Shown here: piece after piece, positions 1-17,278 of the stretch
Layout of the letters: each line of letters begins with the position of its first letter
How positions within the stretch are numbered: the first letter of the stretch is position 1
From: a virus
IMG/VR virus record: IMGVR_UViG_3300035070_001961
Coordinates: 1-20,243 of that record
DNA: 20,243 nt
Reading direction: 5' to 3' (one strand)
The notes under the pieces: model-generated
The model's database searches: none
What the model saw: only the letters and a program-made list of their open reading frames with translations
Told to the model about the DNA's origin: nothing
Made by a program: the position numbers and the translations under genes

Positions 1-438
1 GAATCAAATGGTGTGCAAATGAGAAAATGGTTAGAACACGTAGAGTTGATGGAAAAAGAAGGCAATCAAAAAGTGCCTCAAGATCCTGATGTCAAGAAAG
101 CACCGGGCACACAGCCGGCTCCTTACTACGGCGGTCTTAAAAAATCAACTAAGAAGAAAAGACTAGTACACTTTAAGAAAGGTGCAAAGATGGATGATGA
201 CAATCCAGCTGCGTATAAACCAGCACCTGGTGATGCAAAGGCAAAGACAAAGCCAAGTAAGCACACTTTAAAATATAAAAGAATGTTTGGTGATTCAGTT
301 GATGAAAAAATAAACCTTGCAATGGCAAAGAAAAGAATTAGTCGTGAAAAACAACAAGATAAAATAAGACACGACAGAATGTTAGATAGAGCTCGTATGA
401 GAGACGTCAGACGCAAAAATAAGGAAACAAGCGCATGA
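1..438 (+). CDS. C-terminal part of a basic phage protein, cut by the window edge
   Basis: The frame is open from base 1, so the real start probably lies upstream; inside the window a GTG at 13 and an ATG at 19 are possible starts but have no clear ribosome site. The visible 145 residues are rich in Lys, Arg, Asp and Pro, with a KPSKHTLKYKRMFG stretch and a highly charged helical C-terminus (AKKRISREKQQDKIRHDRML). I recall similar tails on hypothetical proteins of marine T4-like phages, but I cannot name a function. The stop overlaps the next start (ATGA at 435-438), so it belongs to the same operon as the core-like proteins that follow. Confidence 0.75.
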   Translation, partial: ESNGVQMRKWLEHVELMEKEGNQKVPQDPDVKKAPGTQPAPYYGGLKKSTKKKRLVHFKKGAKMDDDNPAAYKPAPGDAKAKTKPSKHTLKYKRMFGDSVDEKINLAMAKKRISREKQQDKIRHDRMLDRARMRDVRRKNKETSA

Positions 439-686
439 TTAAGTTTAGTCAATACATTGTAGAAAATGAGGGACTAAAAAAGAAGGCAGCCAAGTCTGGC
501 ATTTCTTACGGTACTCTCAAAAAAGTTTACAACCGCGGCATGGCAGCATGGCGTACAGGTCACCGGCCGGGTACTACACCACAGCAGTGGGGCATGGCTA
601 GAGTCAATTCATACATTACAAAGGGAAAGGGCACGTATTACGGAGCGGATGCTGATTTGCGTGGTGCTAAGAGGAAAACAAAATGA
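435..686 (+). CDS. Small DUF5824-like phage protein with a capsid-targeting-like leader
   Basis: An 83-residue basic protein. The central motif, KKAAKSGISYGTLKKVYNRG then MAAWRTGHRPGTTPQQWGMA and RVNSYITKGKGTY, matches a widespread phage family that I recall as DUF5824; the number is from memory. The family function is unknown. The first ten residues, MIKFSQYIVE, resemble the T4 internal-protein leader MKTYQEFIAE and contain an I-V-E that fits the (I/L)-x-E rule of the T4 prohead protease. This suggests, by inference, packaging in the head. It overlaps both neighbours by 4 bp (ATGA), which implies translational coupling. Confidence 0.8.
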   Translation: MIKFSQYIVENEGLKKKAAKSGISYGTLKKVYNRGMAAWRTGHRPGTTPQQWGMARVNSYITKGKGTYYGADADLRGAKRKTK

Positions 687-1600
687 AGACGTTCGATCAA
701 ATAAGAGAAGAATTAAGCGAAGGCTACGAATCAAATAAAATCAAAAAAGTTCTTCGAATAGGAGAGGAAGTAGAACAAATTCATGAATTGAAATCATCAG
801 AGAGATCTCAAAATATTTTAAAAACAGGTATTGGTACCAAGGTCGGGCACAGTGGTCATGAAGGGGCTGAGTTCCAGCATGATGAAGCTGCTAAGAAGCA
901 TAAAGGCACTGAAGCAGGAAAACATCATGCAGCTGCTGCACAACATCATTCGAATGCAGTATCAGCTCTAGAAAAAGGCAATATAAGTAGCGCATTCAAC
1001 CATTCAAAACTTGCGAACAGGTCGGCATTGAAAGCCAGATTGGCTGGAGGTAGTAAAACTGATACCGAAACTCTTCATAACCACCATCAAGCAATTTACA
1101 AGGGCCATCAACGGGCGCAAGACCACGCCGCCACCCTAGCCGACCGAAAGACCAAAGCCAAAAAAGATAAACCTATTCAACGTGCTATTGGTCAGGCAAA
1201 GACTAAAATTAAAAGATCTCTTCGGAGGGAAGATGTTGAACAAGTCGATGAGATAAGCGATAAAATGCTTGCTCGTTACAAGAAAAAGGCATTTCAACAA
1301 TATAATGTTTCTAGAAAAAGAATGGGTGATGATGGTTATACTCCAGCGAAAAGAGCTCAACACGCTGATCGGTTTAGAAAACGCAGTAAAGGTATTGGCG
1401 GTTATTATCAAAGAGACATGGCCAAAAGAAATACTATAAAATATAAAGATGGGTCAACATTTGATATGGGCAGTGGATCAAAGTATCTACACAAACCTAC
1501 TAAGCATGATATGTATTCAAAAGGTAAAAAAGGCATGACCATGACAGGAAGACCTGCTTCTGCTATGCCTAAATCTTATCAGGATCCGGATAGGAAGTAA
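683..1600 (+). CDS. Putative internal head (prohead core) protein, His- and Ala-rich
   Basis: A 305-residue, strongly basic protein. Its N-terminus MKTFDQIREELSE resembles the T4 capsid-targeting leader and has I-R-E and L-S-E sites that fit T4-type prohead protease cleavage. Residues about 60-155 are a His/Ala-rich, probably helical segment (KHHAAAAQHHSNAVSAL). Residues 188-203 carry the motif VDEISDKMLARYKKKA, followed by RKRSKGIGGYY; the next two genes have the same arrangement. It is likely a core or internal protein assembled inside the prohead. That role is inferred from the leader and composition, not from a recognised enzyme domain. It starts in a 4-bp overlap with the upstream stop. 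Confidence 0.75.
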   Translation: MKTFDQIREELSEGYESNKIKKVLRIGEEVEQIHELKSSERSQNILKTGIGTKVGHSGHEGAEFQHDEAAKKHKGTEAGKHHAAAAQHHSNAVSALEKGNISSAFNHSKLANRSALKARLAGGSKTDTETLHNHHQAIYKGHQRAQDHAATLADRKTKAKKDKPIQRAIGQAKTKIKRSLRREDVEQVDEISDKMLARYKKKAFQQYNVSRKRMGDDGYTPAKRAQHADRFRKRSKGIGGYYQRDMAKRNTIKYKDGSTFDMGSGSKYLHKPTKHDMYSKGKKGMTMTGRPASAMPKSYQDPDRK

Positions 1601-1604
1601 AAAA

Positions 1605-2441
1605 ATGAAAACATTTTTTCAAGTTAGACAAGAATTGAGCGAACAGCTTAAACCAGAACATCAGGAATTGTTCGACAAACATAAGAAAGCTGCTGAATAT
1701 CACGCGGGGCAAAAGCGGCGATATTCCAGTTATTATAATAGTGCACACCCTAAAACTATAGCACATAAAGCAATGTCGCGTGCTCATGATAGAGTCGCGG
1801 ATGCCATAAGACTCCACCACGGTGGCGGTAAAGACGGTGTTCACCGTACTGTTCAACAACACTCACAAGATCTTCATGATACAGCAGATAAACATAAAAA
1901 TAGGATTGGGAGTGAACATGTATCTAACGCTCAAGATTTACATAAAAGTTTATCAAATATGAAAGAAGATTCAGATGCAGTCAAAGCTTTCTTAGCAAAA
2001 GGTGGCAAGATCAAAAAACTCCCACCAGCAAAAGCACAGGGCTATCATGGCAAGGATGATCCAGGCAAAGATATTAAAGGTATGCTCGATAAGCCTGACA
2101 CTAAAAAGTCTGTAATGGGTACTCGTAAAAAAGCCAAGTCAATGGAAGCAAACGAAGCAATGATTATAAGGTCTAAGAAACCTGCATCAAAACTTCGTAG
2201 GGATGCAGAAAGTCGTCCAACTGGTGTGAGAGAAATATCAAAGGGAATGGCTGGTCGCTATCTAAAGAAGGCACCAGCGAGTGCAGCACAAGCCGGTGAC
2301 ATGATGGCGCGGCCTACACCCGGTGCACCAGGTTCAGCAGCTACTATGGATAAAGGTGTCAAAAAATTAGTGAAACGATATAAGGGCACATCGATGGCTG
2401 TAGATAAACTAACTGGTAAAGCTAAAGTACCTGCAAAATAG
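1605..2441 (+). CDS. Putative internal head protein, paralogue of the upstream gene
   Basis: A 278-residue basic protein. The leader MKTFFQVRQELSE is nearly the same as in the preceding gene, including the L-S-E at 11-13, so the two probably share targeting and processing. A His-rich helical part (residues about 25-115) is followed by a VKAFLAKGGKIKKLPPAKAQG segment, which I recall from other marine T4-like phage proteins. At 208-223 comes VREISKGMAGRYLKKA, and the protein ends with KRYKGTSMAVDKLTGKAKVP. The motif order matches the flanking genes. The ATG at 1605 is preceded by AGGAAG. The function is inferred as packaged core or internal protein; there is no enzymatic motif. Confidence 0.75.
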   Translation: MKTFFQVRQELSEQLKPEHQELFDKHKKAAEYHAGQKRRYSSYYNSAHPKTIAHKAMSRAHDRVADAIRLHHGGGKDGVHRTVQQHSQDLHDTADKHKNRIGSEHVSNAQDLHKSLSNMKEDSDAVKAFLAKGGKIKKLPPAKAQGYHGKDDPGKDIKGMLDKPDTKKSVMGTRKKAKSMEANEAMIIRSKKPASKLRRDAESRPTGVREISKGMAGRYLKKAPASAAQAGDMMARPTPGAPGSAATMDKGVKKLVKRYKGTSMAVDKLTGKAKVPAK

Positions 2442-2449
2442 GATTGGAA

Positions 2450-4402
2450 ATGCCACTAGGAAAAAAAGCAGATGCTGGTGATTACGTAAAAGACTTTTAC
2501 AAATCGAAAGCACCACAGTTTAAAGGTAAATCAAAAAACAAGCGTAGGCAGATGGCCATCGCTGCGTACCTAGACGCACGTGATAAAGGTAAAGCCAAGT
2601 CAGAAGACATGACATTTAAGGTAGAAGTTGATGGACTACCTGCAATGTATATTGATGGCAATTCACCGGGCCAAGTGAAGAATCACTTACGTAAATTGAT
2701 CAAGCAACCTTCAATGATTAAAGGTGTAAGTCGTATGACAAAGTACGATGTAAAGAAAACATATCGTGCTAAAGCTCAAGGCAAAGATGTTGAAGAAGAG
2801 GATATGTCAGGTTACTTAAAATCTATTAGTGGACCTAGCCATAGAGGTAAAACCGCAACAGCCGCAGACATTGCAGCCATTAACAAGCATTTAAGGGATA
2901 CAAGAAAGCAGCGTGTAAGAAGTCACCCATTGGGATACAAGCATTCAGCTAGGGCCCAAGCAGCCCGGAGTGGTGTAAGTGAAAGATATGATTATCCACA
3001 CGGCACTGCAAAAGCGTACAAGGCTGCAACACCAGGTCAAGAAAAAGGTGACGGGTATATGGAGCCAAAGCAAGAAGCTGCACGTATACCACGTAAAAAA
3101 GGACAGCCGGCTAATTCTAAGAAACACAGTGATCTATATACTGATGAAAATCCGAAAGGTACGATTCACGGTCTAAAGTTTGCTACGGTTGCAGATGCAA
3201 AAGCTTCGGTGGCTAAGATTAAAAAGTCTAGTAGAAAACATGCACACAAAATTCAAGCAGCGATAGCAATGGAACAAAGAGCGAGAGTTGCTGGTAAAAA
3301 TGCAGAAGCTGCAGTATACAGAAAGTACATAAACGCCATGAAAAAGAAAACAAAAGCCATGAAAGAAAATTATATCGTTAAACAATATAAAAATGGTAAA
3401 ACAACAGGTGTAGTAAAAAGATTCAAAGGATTGAAACAAGCTACTGCACACGCTGATAAACAAGGCGGTGATCACAGAGTGCACAAAGAAGATAGTATCA
3501 AAACTAAACCTCCATTTGCTGATGCTAAAAAAATATCAACTAAACCTACCAAAGATCAGTTTGGTAATATAATTAAGAACCGCGCTAGGCATTTAGCTAG
3601 AAAAGCTGCTAAACAAGCCGGTGGTGACAAGGTAAACGAGTTGAAATATACAACGATGAACAAGTATATGAGTAAAGCTCAAAGAAGTAAAGATAGAGCT
3701 ACTAATTCTGCAGTTGCAACTATACTAAGAAAAGGTGATCATTCTAAAGATTTACAGACTATGAAAAAGCGTGATAAAGGTATGAAGCTTGCAAAGAGCC
3801 GCGCTGTAGATAAGATACGTAAAGGCCATAAAGCTAACGAAGAATGGGAAACTATAAGAACAGGGCCTGGTTTTAGAATACAAAAAGATAGTGATACAGG
3901 TGCCACAAGAAGAGTAGCTGATAAAGCCAAAGATAGAAAAATTAGAATTAGAACTGAAGCTGATGCCATGGATATGGTAAAAGCGAATAACGCTCAATCT
4001 AAAAAAGGTTATAAAACTGAAAAGCTTACGATACCAAAGATACGAAATATCATGTACAAAGGTGCAAAAGCTCTAGGTGATGTGCAAGCTGTACGTAAAA
4101 AGAAGGTAGGTAAACGTATTGCCCGGCGTGTTGCGGGTAAACTTGCAAGTCGTGCATTGAGAAAGCTAATTAAGAATGATGTACAAGAAGGTAAAGGTGG
4201 TAAACCAGAATCTTTTGAAGCACAATATAAACGTAGACTTGTAAAGACTACGAAGCCAGAGCACAAAGAAAAAGGTTACAACTGGAGGATCAAAGGTAAG
4301 GATAGACCAGAAATTTCTATTAAGTTGTATAAGTCTAAGCCTGGTCAAGCAGAATTTAATAAGCAACTTAGAAGAGTAGCGGGGCACGAGTTCGGTGGAT
4401 AG
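2450..4402 (+). CDS. Long modular basic protein, candidate polyprotein of the prohead core
   Basis: A 650-residue, Lys/Arg-rich protein. I prefer the ATG at 2450, with AGGA six bases upstream, over an in-frame TTG at 2444. Modules seen in order: DFYKSKAPQFKGKSKNKRRQ (residues about 16-35); a VEVDGLPAMYIDGNSPGQVK segment (about 58-77); GVSERYDYPHGTAKAYKAAT (about 175-194); a small ENYIVKQYKNGKTTGVVKRF domain (about 307-326); VNELKYTTMNKYMSKAQ (about 395-411), matching the repeat of the two upstream genes; and a basic C-terminal domain. V-x-E tripeptides (114-116, 176-178, 395-397, 578-580) often fall at module borders and fit T4-type prohead protease cleavage. Similar modules occur in different combinations in marine T4-like phages. 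The role is inferred as head-internal. Confidence 0.72.
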   Translation: MPLGKKADAGDYVKDFYKSKAPQFKGKSKNKRRQMAIAAYLDARDKGKAKSEDMTFKVEVDGLPAMYIDGNSPGQVKNHLRKLIKQPSMIKGVSRMTKYDVKKTYRAKAQGKDVEEEDMSGYLKSISGPSHRGKTATAADIAAINKHLRDTRKQRVRSHPLGYKHSARAQAARSGVSERYDYPHGTAKAYKAATPGQEKGDGYMEPKQEAARIPRKKGQPANSKKHSDLYTDENPKGTIHGLKFATVADAKASVAKIKKSSRKHAHKIQAAIAMEQRARVAGKNAEAAVYRKYINAMKKKTKAMKENYIVKQYKNGKTTGVVKRFKGLKQATAHADKQGGDHRVHKEDSIKTKPPFADAKKISTKPTKDQFGNIIKNRARHLARKAAKQAGGDKVNELKYTTMNKYMSKAQRSKDRATNSAVATILRKGDHSKDLQTMKKRDKGMKLAKSRAVDKIRKGHKANEEWETIRTGPGFRIQKDSDTGATRRVADKAKDRKIRIRTEADAMDMVKANNAQSKKGYKTEKLTIPKIRNIMYKGAKALGDVQAVRKKKVGKRIARRVAGKLASRALRKLIKNDVQEGKGGKPESFEAQYKRRLVKTTKPEHKEKGYNWRIKGKDRPEISIKLYKSKPGQAEFNKQLRRVAGHEFGG

Positions 4403-5865: not shown

Positions 5866-6939
5866 ATGTTTGGAAATAATCCATTCGATTTACGTGGTAG
5901 GGCCACACAAGAAACGGTCCAAGAAAACAAATACGTAATACCAGAAGAGATCCCAGCAAATGAACGTACTGCTTTTCACGGTGCGGCAGCTGCTGCGGCC
6001 AAGGCTGGTAAAAAATCATTTAACTTCGGTGGTAAGACACACCCAGTTACAATGAAGAAAGATACTGCAAAGCAAATACCAACTGAAGCACTAGATCAAA
6101 AAGATAAGTCAACGCTAATGAAAGTTGCTAAGAAACTTAAAGGTGCAAGTGCTGCACATGCAGGTCAGTCAAAAGCCATTATGAAAGATATTCAGGATCA
6201 AAAAGATATGGATCCTAAAGATCACGTTGGTAAGAGTAAAAAGAATCCAGGTATGTTCTGTGTGTTTGATAAAGACGGAAAAGAAGTAAAGCTTTTCAAA
6301 GACAAGAAAGATGCTGAAGATTATGCAATGAAAAATCATGATAAACTAATGGGCGAAGGTTATATGAAAGACCTTGCCACAAACAAAACAGAACCAAAGC
6401 CAAAGTCTGATGCTCAGGTTGCAGCTGACTTTAAGAAGCGTCGCAAGATGGCTAACAAAGAAAAAGCTGAAGGCGGCGGTAAAGAAGGGGATGTTCAAAT
6501 GAACCCTAAAATGGAAACAGGTAGTAAATCAGAGTCTCGTATAAGAGAAGCTTTAATGTCAGTTCTCGAAAAGAAACACGACGATCACTACAAGTCTGCT
6601 ACTGAACCTGAGATGATGAAGGATAAGTTGAAAGGCAAGGGTGCACAAGACATGGCCGCCGGCGCTGAAAAAGAAATTAGCAAAGGACCAGAGGCACATC
6701 TTGATGAACCAGACATGTTGAAGAAAGATCGTGCAAAGATGACTTCAAATGTTAAGAAGTCTGCAATGCGTAAGAATGATAATCCAAAAGGTGATACCAA
6801 CGTTGTTCCTGGTGGAACACCAATGAAAGACCCTGCTGCTATGAAGTCAGAATCATACAATAAGATGTCTGGATTACTAGCGGCTTATGCATCGATGCAA
6901 AAAACTGAAGAAGTGGAAAAAGAAGAAGATGGCTCTTAA
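5866..6939 (+). CDS. Core/scaffold-type structural protein of marine T4-like phages
   Basis: A 357-residue, Lys/Ala/Asp-rich protein with a strong ribosome site (TAGGAG) before the ATG. Segments seen: a VQENKYVIPEEIPANERTAF leader, an Ala-rich stretch with AAAAAAKAGKKSFNFGGKTH (about 40-59), KGASAAHAGQSKAI (about 92-105), a compact FCVFDKDGKEVKLFKDKKDA segment (about 131-150), RIREALMSVLEKKHDDHYKS (about 225-244), and a C-terminal MRKNDNPKGDTNVVPGG. I recall these pieces from hypothetical or prohead-core proteins of marine T4-like phages. I-R-E, V-Q-E and V-L-E sites fit T4-type prohead protease processing. The structural role is an inference from composition and context. Confidence 0.72.
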   Translation: MFGNNPFDLRGRATQETVQENKYVIPEEIPANERTAFHGAAAAAAKAGKKSFNFGGKTHPVTMKKDTAKQIPTEALDQKDKSTLMKVAKKLKGASAAHAGQSKAIMKDIQDQKDMDPKDHVGKSKKNPGMFCVFDKDGKEVKLFKDKKDAEDYAMKNHDKLMGEGYMKDLATNKTEPKPKSDAQVAADFKKRRKMANKEKAEGGGKEGDVQMNPKMETGSKSESRIREALMSVLEKKHDDHYKSATEPEMMKDKLKGKGAQDMAAGAEKEISKGPEAHLDEPDMLKKDRAKMTSNVKKSAMRKNDNPKGDTNVVPGGTPMKDPAAMKSESYNKMSGLLAAYASMQKTEEVEKEEDGS

Positions 6940-15058: not shown

Positions 15059-17278
15059 ATGGCTACACCGAACGTAGACACGCGAGAGTTTTTATCGCAG
15101 ACGAAATTTTATGATGGATATTCACGTTTCAAGGAATACGGAAACGGTGGCTATGAGTCTTGGAACGAAGCAGTTGACCGCGTCATGGAGATGCACTTAG
15201 ATAACTACCAAGAGTCAAATGGTAAGTTACAAGATTTTATTGAAGAAGCTCGTACCGCATACAAAGAACAGCGCGTACTCGGTGCACAGCGTGCACTACA
15301 GTTCGGTGGTGAACAACTATTAAAACATCAGATGAGAATGTATAACTGTACATCTTCTTATGCTGATCGTCCAGATTTTTTCGGTGAATACTTTTATATT
15401 CTATTGTGTGGTGCAGGTGCAGGATTCTCTGTGCAAGAACACCACGTAGCTAAACTTCCTCAAATTAAAAACAGAACTAAGCAAGCAAAAGGTTACATTG
15501 TTGAAGACTCTATCGAAGGTTGGGCTTCAGCTTTAGACGTCCTTTTGTCGTCTTATTTCGTTGGTGGTGGTAAACATCCAGATTTCGAAGGACGTAGAGT
15601 TTTCTTTGATCTTACACAGATCCGGCCAAAGGGTGCTAAAATCTCTGGTGGATTTAAAGCACCGGGTCCAGAGGGTTTACGTCGTTCTCTCGATAAGATA
15701 GAACTTATTTTACAAAACTTAGTTATTGATTCCAAAGATCCTGTATCTCTTCGTCCTATTCAGGTCTACGATATTTGTATGCACGCTGCAGATGCTGTCT
15801 TATCAGGTGGTGTTCGCAGATCTGCAACCATTTGTCTTTTCTCGCCTGAAGATGAAGAGATGATGACAGCAAAAACAGGTAACTGGTTTATGGACAATGC
15901 ACAAAGAGGCAGATCAAATAACTCTGCAGTTATTGTACGTGATGATGCAACACCTGATATGTTTGCAAAAATCATGGAATCAGTGAAATCATTTGGAGAA
16001 CCAGGATTCTATTTTACCACCTCAAAAGAACACACAACAAATCCTTGTGTAGAAATCGGTATGTATCCTCAGAAAGACGGTGTGTCTGGATGGCAGGGTT
16101 GTAACCTAACCGAGATTAACGGTGGTATGTGTCATACCGAGGAAGACTTTTACAAGGCATGCCGCGCAGCGTCTATCCTCGGTACCTTACAAGCCGGCTA
16201 CACTGACTTTAAATTTATATCGCCAGTGTCTAAAGAAATCTTTGATAGAGAAGCACTGTTAGGTGTTTCAATCACAGGTTGGATGAATAATCCGGAGGTT
16301 CTATTCAATGAAAAGATTCTTGAAAAAGGTGCTAAAATCGTTAAAGAAGTTAATCGACAGGTTGCTGATATTATTGGCATTAATCCTGCTGCTCGCACTA
16401 CATGTGTTAAACCAAGCGGCAACGCAAGTGTCCTCTTACAAACAGCAAGTGGAATCCACGCCGAGCATTCACCACGCTATATACGAAACATACAAATGAA
16501 TAAAGAGTCTGAAATTACTCAGGCGATTGTAAAGTCATATCCTTACATGGTAGAAGAGTCAGTATGGTCAGCCAACGGAACGGACGTTGTAATATCATTC
16601 CCTATCGTACCACACAAAGGTTCAATGTATAAGGAAGAACTATATGGCGTCAAGCATTTGGAACTGGTTGCAAAAGCACAAAAGCACTGGGTCATTGCTG
16701 GTACAAATGAGGAACTTTGCGCTGATGAAGGTGTTCGTCACAATGTCTCTAATACTATTATTGTTGATGATTGGGATGAAGTAGAAAAGTACGTATTTGA
16801 AAATCGCTATTCCTTCTCTGGTATTTCTTTTCTTAGTATGTCCGGTGACAAAGATTTTAATCAAGCGCCAAACACAGCAGTGATTGATGATAAGCAGATG
16901 GTAAAGAAATACGGCCCCGCAGCAATCTTTGCGTCAGGTCTCGTAGTCGATGCTATGAAAGTATATCCTAATCTATGGGATGCATGTTCAACTGCACAAG
17001 GTATGGGATTAGACATATCTCTTGAATCTTCAGAAAATTCTGCAAGACAAGACTGGAATCGTAGGTTTGAAAACTTTGCAAACAACTATCTTAAGGGCGA
17101 TACAAAAGAAGCAGAACATTGCTTAAAAGATTCATATCTGTTTCACAAGTGGAATAAAATTCAGCAAAACTTACAACCCGTTAACTGGAACATGGATCTC
17201 ACAGAGCAAGTCTTTACAGACGTAGATACGATGGGTGCGGCTGCTTGCGCTGCTGGTGGCTGTGAAATCGACTTCTGA
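15059..17278 (+). CDS. nrdJ: Adenosylcobalamin-dependent (class II) ribonucleotide reductase
   Basis: A 739-residue enzyme reducing ribonucleotides to deoxyribonucleotides with a radical made from coenzyme B12, supplying DNA precursors for phage replication. The length equals that of monomeric triphosphate reductases of the RTPR type. Landmarks: YNCTSSY with C97 and C348 in GCNLTEIN as candidates for the reducing pair; CGAGAGFSVQEHHV (117-130); the finger loop N328-P-C330-V-E332 carrying the radical Cys with Asn and Glu; GGVRRSATICL (250-260); KPSGNASVLLQTASGIHAEH (451-470); and C-terminal C730/C735 in ACAAGGC as the reductant-exchange pair. All expected catalytic residues seem present. It has its own promoter, and the next gene starts inside its last codons. 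Confidence 0.95.
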   Translation: MATPNVDTREFLSQTKFYDGYSRFKEYGNGGYESWNEAVDRVMEMHLDNYQESNGKLQDFIEEARTAYKEQRVLGAQRALQFGGEQLLKHQMRMYNCTSSYADRPDFFGEYFYILLCGAGAGFSVQEHHVAKLPQIKNRTKQAKGYIVEDSIEGWASALDVLLSSYFVGGGKHPDFEGRRVFFDLTQIRPKGAKISGGFKAPGPEGLRRSLDKIELILQNLVIDSKDPVSLRPIQVYDICMHAADAVLSGGVRRSATICLFSPEDEEMMTAKTGNWFMDNAQRGRSNNSAVIVRDDATPDMFAKIMESVKSFGEPGFYFTTSKEHTTNPCVEIGMYPQKDGVSGWQGCNLTEINGGMCHTEEDFYKACRAASILGTLQAGYTDFKFISPVSKEIFDREALLGVSITGWMNNPEVLFNEKILEKGAKIVKEVNRQVADIIGINPAARTTCVKPSGNASVLLQTASGIHAEHSPRYIRNIQMNKESEITQAIVKSYPYMVEESVWSANGTDVVISFPIVPHKGSMYKEELYGVKHLELVAKAQKHWVIAGTNEELCADEGVRHNVSNTIIVDDWDEVEKYVFENRYSFSGISFLSMSGDKDFNQAPNTAVIDDKQMVKKYGPAAIFASGLVVDAMKVYPNLWDACSTAQGMGLDISLESSENSARQDWNRRFENFANNYLKGDTKEAEHCLKDSYLFHKWNKIQQNLQPVNWNMDLTEQVFTDVDTMGAAACAAGGCEIDF

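Follow-up and report, generated by a model that had tools for sequence, protein, structure and literature searches.

Basic protein genes at the start of the window

We analysed a 20,243-base virus fragment (the window), whose first 4.7 kb carry closely packed plus-strand genes for proteins with 20–28% Lys+Arg. Three tandem genes of this locus share a motif of the form V-x-E-(I/L)...YxxKA, on the strength of which an original prediction had tentatively described them as a head polyprotein, that is, as chains of packaged peptides separated by T4-type prohead protease sites after V-x-E, with modules shuffled between genes. The features of the locus are given below; a slash marks a border after Glu, and the predicted cut sites consist of a hydrophobic residue, any residue and Glu (hxE).

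1–438, plus strand: cytidylyltransferase-like protein, C-terminal part, truncated by the contig edge (phrog_3041, PHROG 2.2e-15)
435–686, plus strand: DUF5824 basic protein, 83 amino acids (aa) (Pfam PF19141, 1.9e-20)
435–464, plus strand: capsid-targeting-like N-terminus MIKFSQYIVE/ of the DUF5824 protein (sequence pattern)
683–1600, plus strand: basic protein, 305 aa, 21% Lys+Arg (open reading frame, ORF)
683–721, plus strand: targeting-like start MKTFDQIREELSE/ of the 305-aa protein (sequence pattern)
758–766, 779–787 and 1244–1252, plus strand: predicted internal sites IGE/, IHE/ and VDE/ of the 305-aa protein (hxE motif)
1244–1438, plus strand: YxxKA module copy 1, VDE/ISDKMLARYKKKA...KRSKG (motif and AlphaFold2 hairpin prediction)
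1605–2441, plus strand: basic protein, 278 aa, 22% Lys+Arg (ORF)
1605–1643, plus strand: targeting-like start MKTFFQVRQELSE/ of the 278-aa protein (sequence pattern)
1959–1967, plus strand: predicted site MKE/DSDAVKAF preceding the AKGGKIK module (hxE motif)
2226–2234, plus strand: predicted site VRE/ preceding YxxKA module copy 2 (2226–2273 plus KRYKG)
2450–4402, plus strand: multi-module basic protein, 650 aa, 25% Lys+Arg (modules C, K, H, F, Q, A, M, J)
2789–2797, plus strand: predicted site VEE/ at the joint of module K and the EDMSGYLKSI segment (orthologue alignment)
2975–2983, plus strand: predicted site VSE/ preceding RYDYPHGTAKAYK (orthologue alignment)
3359–3367, plus strand: predicted site MKE/ closing module F, ahead of NYIVKQYKNG (hxE motif)
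3632–3679, plus strand: YxxKA module copy 3, beginning at the predicted site VNE/ (motif)
4181–4189, plus strand: predicted site VQE/ at the joint of modules M and J (aligns with ISE/ of a free-standing J gene in the related contig G005)
4395–4688, plus strand: DUF6321 basic protein, 97 aa, 28% Lys+Arg (Pfam PF19846, 1.3e-13; phrog_10346 at the C-terminus, 8.8e-27)

The 650-aa protein probably starts at the ATG at 2450 and not at the listed TTG at 2444, because its orthologues begin at MPLG..., the conserved start seen here as MPLGKKADAGDYVKDF.... The same start is implied by the residue numbers originally given for V-x-E in this protein (114–116, 176–178 and 578–580), which are correct. No DNA-level match to the window was found among 50,697 phage records, in which ORFs 683–1600 and 1605–2441 also had no tblastn relative. 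Searched against Pfam and PHROG, the modules mostly gave no match, and neither they nor the 650-aa protein contained an enzymatic domain above cut-off.

The three 16-residue motifs align without gaps, as first described: VDEISDKMLARYKKKA (ORF 683–1600, residues 188–203, nt 1244–1291), VREISKGMAGRYLKKA (ORF 1605–2441, residues 208–223, nt 2226–2273) and VNELKYTTMNKYMSKA (ORF 2450–4402, residues 395–410, nt 3632–3679). Each is followed 29–33 residues further on by a (K/R)R-x-K-G element (KRSKG, KRYKG and KRDKG), and shuffling of the three proteins produced a mean of only 0.0001 motif matches per set. A profile search of related loci from viral contigs and isolates identified 139 distinct YxxKA matches, with up to four copies per protein. 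In an alignment of 48 of these sequences, Glu10 and Tyr19 were invariant, the V, E and L/I of the motif were conserved, and a KR-x-KG-I element occupied the second half. AlphaFold2 modelled YxxKA copy 1 as a helical hairpin (helices 13–33 and 41–70; mean predicted local distance difference test score, pLDDT, of 85), placing V-x-E in a low-confidence coil ahead of helix 1 (mean pLDDT of 64 for the first ten residues). The 16-residue motifs are part of a widespread helical-hairpin module, itself one among about a dozen modules that are combined in varying orders. A sequence search of the PDB returned no match. The AlphaFold2 model of the 650-aa protein (mean pLDDT 46), in which only module F (~241–315) was well predicted, was not used as evidence. 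Assignment of module F to DUF5872 was rejected, as this module had no Pfam hit; the weak DUF5872 similarity sits on the ACYHKV module.

Placement of hxE and exchange of modules

The V-x-E site is better generalised to hxE. The 650-aa protein contains exactly five such motifs (VEE 114–116, VSE 176–178, MKE 304–306, VNE 395–397 and VQE 578–580), all five located at module borders. This number is as expected from composition (4.9 in shuffled sequences), so the signal lies in the placement of the motifs and not in their abundance. For a broader border test, we took module cores from conserved parts with boundaries set by hand, chose mutually dissimilar contexts and sought [VILMF]-x-E within 8 residues upstream of each core. 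At non-YxxKA borders the motif was present in 70/121 contexts (58%), compared to 6% in windows elsewhere in these proteins and 24% after shuffling of the border residues, and replacing E with D, K, Q, N, S, A or G abolished the enrichment. The clearest independent case is the CW-GY module, which is preceded by hxE in 91% of contexts, with a few residues' play between motif and module and mostly Ala or Lys following the Glu (position P1′). The B and YxxKA modules retain hxE in 91–96% of their fused contexts.

The module cores showed the opposite tendency, with 2 hxE observed against 21.8 expected. The control motifs Exh (20 against 22.0) and hxxE (19 against 21.9) occurred there at normal frequency, hxD was mildly low (40 against 60.7), and ordinary ORFs of the same phages (n = 460) contained hxE at 1.19 times expectation. 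A second test, free of hand-set boundaries, used BLAST homology breakpoints between multi-module proteins, located with no reference to the motif. At these breakpoints (616 contexts) hxE lay within 4 residues in 45% of cases against 12% at random positions, and Glu in 80% against 36%; hxD, hxK, hxN, hxS and hxT were not enriched. The original expectation that V-x-E marks module borders, which had been staked on its being more frequent there than elsewhere in homologues, was thus upheld in the broader hxE form. Enrichment at borders together with avoidance inside modules is the pattern that a protease site would be expected to leave in these sequences.

The same borders are places where neighbouring sequence changes. 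Comparison of four 650-aa-protein orthologues shows a common K module that closes with ...GKD[VL][DE]E (GKGLDE in one of them) and is continued after this Glu by four different segments. EDMSGYLKSI, in turn, stands behind VEE in one orthologue and behind VNE in another, with unrelated sequences upstream; VNE/ at YxxKA copy 3 corresponds to VDE/ or MDE/ in orthologues, again after different upstream sequence, and the NYIVKQYKNG module is preceded by Glu-Asn in other contexts too. Modules also exist alone: two phages lacking the S77 prohead protease carry single modules as entire genes, whose products of 50, 83 and 96 aa correspond to fused modules over almost their whole length. ORF28 of Bacillus phage PM1 (50 aa) matches the stretch from YKTE/ to NDVQE/ in the 650-aa protein. 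In Pelagibacter phage HTVC033P, a 96-aa gene resembles module F and an 83-aa gene resembles DUF6321, the latter starting no more than 2 residues away from VIDE/, a border in Sf-CH5 gp74. In G005 the J module is a separate gene whose start, MIKFKQFISE/KK, aligns with the internal VQE/GK of the window protein; J and K are both known as free-standing modules with a targeting tag and in fused form. The earlier proposal that modules are shuffled between genes is supported.

Two other origins of the joints were rejected. Internal re-initiation instead of fusion was discounted because relatives do not retain the Met ahead of module K (EDM, EET, EDA and EGT). A joint at the DNA level, in the form of conserved codons or a recombination site, found no support in the use of Glu codons GAA/GAG (92/27 at junctions and 286/102 elsewhere). 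Junction Val codons differ from background in having relatively more GTA, but each of the four is used, and hence there was no sign of a fixed DNA word.

Two further arrangements were observed among the relatives. One orthologue of the 650-aa protein (L002:8007-10202, alignment columns 50–100) has an extra Cys-rich, zinc-ribbon-like segment, VVCPKCRDTDEREGCTFCDGKGQVP, inserted between two Glu borders, KKE/S and LQE/A. In HTVC033P, gp36–gp41 are very small basic genes lying side by side (42, 96, 82 and 46 aa, and others), which resemble the modules of the T4-like phages in unfused form.

Proposed packaging and cleavage, and competing explanations

The original prediction had missed the capsid-targeting-like N-termini of this locus and, with them, its closest precedent, the T4 internal head proteins with a capsid targeting sequence (CTS). 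T4 internal protein (IP) III is directed to the head by its N-terminal 10 residues, of which positions 4 and 7 serve targeting and positions 8 and 10 processing (PMC9026906). The T4-type arrangement (aromatic at 4, hydrophobic or aromatic at 7, hxE ending at about 10–13) was found in ORFs 435–686, 683–1600 and 1605–2441. In the DUF5824 protein, whose start is kept among relatives, MIKFSQYIVE/ has aromatics at residues 4 and 7 and I-x-E at 8–10, matching the IPIII pattern. Intact counterparts of the truncated cytidylyltransferase-like gene in six related contigs (G001, G003, G004, G005, G006 and G007) have capsid-targeting-like starts (e.g. MINSFKNFLVE/D and MINSFSTFLVE/E), as does the P-TIM68 homologue (MKSFTSFFTE/A). 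The start of the DUF6321 protein, M/V-DRLKTFIEK, is weakly targeting-like (MDKFKTFMEK in the G003 relative). Among 1009 ORFs of six related contigs, 37 combined a targeting-like start with hxE; by hand count 28 belonged to this locus, 3 adjoined gp21, 2 were gp23 and 4 lay elsewhere.

Targeting-like starts were also noticed in two other genes of the related contigs. A basic gene of 68–78 aa directly upstream of gp21, in a gp68-like position, begins as the window proteins do (MKTFTNIRE, MKQFTQIRE, MKTLKNLRE with an internal Met, and MKQFSQLRE). A conserved 408–409-aa protein beside the locus (MNTFQQFVTEQKNTHMTHIEDKVLYGGVKGTREA in G004) may be packaged too, because its start is targeting-like.

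G001:31348-31560, G003:13423-13635, G005:27997-28230, G006:108785-109021 and G007:87909-88115: basic gene upstream of gp21
G001:80848-82077, G004:58378-59607 and G007:32280-33506: 408–409-aa protein

In relatives, a protease of the required type accompanies these genes. S77 prohead protease was encoded in 13/13 related contigs of at least 90 kb and in 6/6 T4-like isolates bearing the modules, and gp23 of the same phages contains L/M-x-E/A in its propeptide. Evidence from virions comes from published mass spectrometry of homologues in another phage, the cyanophage S-CREM2, where gp154 (the cytidylyltransferase), gp155, gp156, gp160, gp136 and gp137 were detected (PMC10665884); its authors warn that contamination may account for some of the non-structural proteins. 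We found that gp154 starts with MKNFSSFLTE/A and gp136 with MQTFSMFFSE/D, that the basic protein gp160 is built of several modules bordered by hxE and that gp137 ends in a DUF6321-like unit. S-SM1 virions likewise contained a cytidylyltransferase (PMC3037559).

These observations point, with reasonable probability, to T4-style packaged internal head proteins, several of them fused into shuffled multi-module precursors that the prohead protease would cut at least partly. The cytidylyltransferase-like, DUF5824 and two tagged basic proteins would enter the prohead core via T4-type N-terminal targeting sequences, and the 650-aa protein would join the core untagged. The S77 protease (gp21 type) would cut after hxE, removing the targeting sequences and dividing the multi-module proteins at module borders into basic pieces of 40–100 residues that would lie among the packaged DNA and probably be ejected with it. 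The hxE sites may double as tolerated joints, at which a module moves between a free-standing tagged gene and a fused position. That the family is packaged in the head appears highly likely, and hxE is likely to be a true protease site; for substantial separation of the modules in the virion we see the chances as even. The basic charge of the modules hints at association with DNA; ejection and anti-host roles are suggested by the T4 precedents IPI and Alt.

The computed evidence consists of where hxE stands, its scarcity inside modules, the breakpoints, the targeting-like starts and the co-occurrence with the protease; cleavage, retention, ejection and DNA binding are what we infer. Several observations weigh against this interpretation. 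The 650-aa protein does not have the T4-type tag, and its start, MPLGKKADAGDYVKDF, is conserved in orthologues. Not every module border bears hxE: 42% of non-YxxKA borders are devoid of it, and the AKGGKIK module is preceded by it in 29% of contexts, its usual start being ...KKE/DSD. The residue at P1′ is Leu or Ile at YxxKA sites, Ala, Gly, Asp or Lys at other borders and Ala in the gp23 propeptide. The border contexts share ancestry, so that p-values overstate their independence. S77 was present in 2/4 random contigs of at least 90 kb, a control too small to be informative, and the 20-kb window, which contains no protease gene, is too short to settle its presence in the phage. Peptide coverage of S-CREM2 gp160 was 13%, at which cut and intact protein are indistinguishable.

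Alternatively, packaged internal proteins might lose only their targeting sequence, multi-module ones staying intact, with each internal hxE a relic linker from the fusion of tagged modules. Targeting sequences do end in the same hxE, modules J and K occur in both forms, and about 40% of the non-YxxKA borders are without hxE, as decaying relics might be. However, the near-absence of hxE inside modules (2 against 21.8) would remain unexplained, the motif is kept in 91–96% of fused B and YxxKA contexts, and junctions keep the hydrophobic P3 and Glu P1 but not the aromatics at targeting-sequence spacing (P7 and P4). We regard this account as unlikely. Somewhat less likely still, the proteins could resemble prohead core or scaffold, being chopped at hxE into fragments that exit the head before DNA packaging. 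T4 gp22, gp67 and gp68 are indeed cut to small peptides that mostly exit, the 650-aa protein is untagged, and the multi-module genes of Bellamy, S-CREM2 and Sf-CH5 sit between the terminase genes within the head cluster. Yet mass spectrometry of purified S-CREM2 virions recovered the homologues gp160, gp155, gp136 and gp137, 20–28% Lys+Arg fits DNA-associated internal proteins better than scaffold, and the diversity and turnover of modules fit accessory ejected factors, not a conserved scaffold.

We regard as very improbable an explanation with no protease at all, in which V-x-E-[IL] caps the N-terminus of the helical hairpin and the Glu-rich borders are flexible, charge-neutralising linkers. 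Conservation of V, E and L/I in the YxxKA module and the general excess of Glu at borders (80% against 36%) would fit such a role, but hxE in this same order also stands before unrelated modules, more often than composition gives (0.58 against 0.24 shuffled), hxD shows no enrichment, the depletion inside modules is specific to hxE, and AlphaFold2 places VDE in low-confidence coil ahead of helix 1.

Taken together, the original prediction is partly supported. Its T4-type protease site gains from S77 in the relatives and loses from the borders without hxE and the atypical Leu/Ile at P1′, and packaging of the proteins agrees with the homologues found in virions. In place of a single head polyprotein, the locus is an operon of targeting-tagged proteins plus one untagged multi-module protein.

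Known systems and neighbouring observations

T4 IPI, IPII, IPIII and Alt are internal head proteins with a CTS cut by gp21 (PMC9026906, PMC3012670, PMC7411985). The proteins described here share with the T4 IPs the N-terminal tag of about 10 residues with aromatic at 4, hydrophobic or aromatic at 7 and hxE at the cut position, small size and basic character, a phage family that has an S77 protease, rapid turnover and homologues in virions. They differ in that the T4 proteins are single units, whereas here modules are fused with hxE at many borders and the largest protein is untagged. T4 gp22, gp67 and gp68 are multi-site gp21 substrates yielding small peptides (PMC9026906, Table 1) and so involve, as proposed here, several cuts in one precursor, with fragments of 2.5 and 3.9 kDa staying in the head; that core is conserved and its fragments mostly exit, in contrast to basic exchangeable units that also occur as separate genes. 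Ejection proteins of SPN3US and phiKZ, such as gp53/gp54, have A-x-E or S-x-E sites for a gp21-related protease (PMC10052503, PMC5694885). As in the model proposed here, there is x-x-Glu cleavage by such a protease with several cuts per head protein, but the cuts trim N-terminal propeptides and there is no shuffled module chain. Polyvalent proteins, which are predicted to be packaged and injected (Iyer et al. 2017, PMC5512222), also have multi-domain architectures with shuffled domains; their domains are biochemically disparate and some autoproteolytic, unlike the small basic modules seen here, which have no enzymatic signature and bear prohead-protease-type sites at their borders. The 650-aa protein does not contain the two or more disparate enzymatic domains per polypeptide that define the polyvalent class. 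We found no description of chained head proteins of this kind in the open PMC literature, subscription papers and supplements aside.

Whether T4-like phages possess a general polyprotein system, with chains of exchangeable basic mini-proteins freed at hxE, one gene giving many packaged or ejected factors, and the protease site acting as the swap joint between tagged genes and chain links, we judge evenly balanced. If the proposed cleavage is correct, the capsid-maturing protease of T4-like marine phages would make a cocktail of small packaged proteins from one precursor, so far known only in embryo from T4 gp22/gp67 peptides and trimmed ejection proteins. It would also give a location and a processing rule for unannotated proteins in many marine phage genomes, and predict precise mature termini, which could be checked by routine mass spectrometry of virions. 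A targeting-like start or an hxE joint would then serve as a sequence rule for ejected anti-host factors in phages lacking cultured hosts.

The AKGGKIK module DAVKAFLAKGGKIKKLPP (window 1959–2140; ORF 1605–2441, ~residues 121–180), present in 91 frames of the related loci analysed, resembled the SutA RNA-polymerase-binding domain of Pfam (PF20661) below threshold, at 21.3 bits with a cut-off of 29.3 (E 1.8e-4); it might be an ejected RNA-polymerase-binding peptide. Further along, window 5866–6939 encodes a Lys-rich protein of 357 aa that has six hxE sites but no targeting-like start, and whose KSFNFGGKTHPVTM segment directly precedes the AKGGKIK module in the related locus L124. Downstream of the basic-gene locus, window 15059–17278 encodes a 739-aa ribonucleotide reductase (phrog_367, 2.5e-96), and NrdA-type genes occupy the corresponding place in S-CREM2 and P-TIM68.

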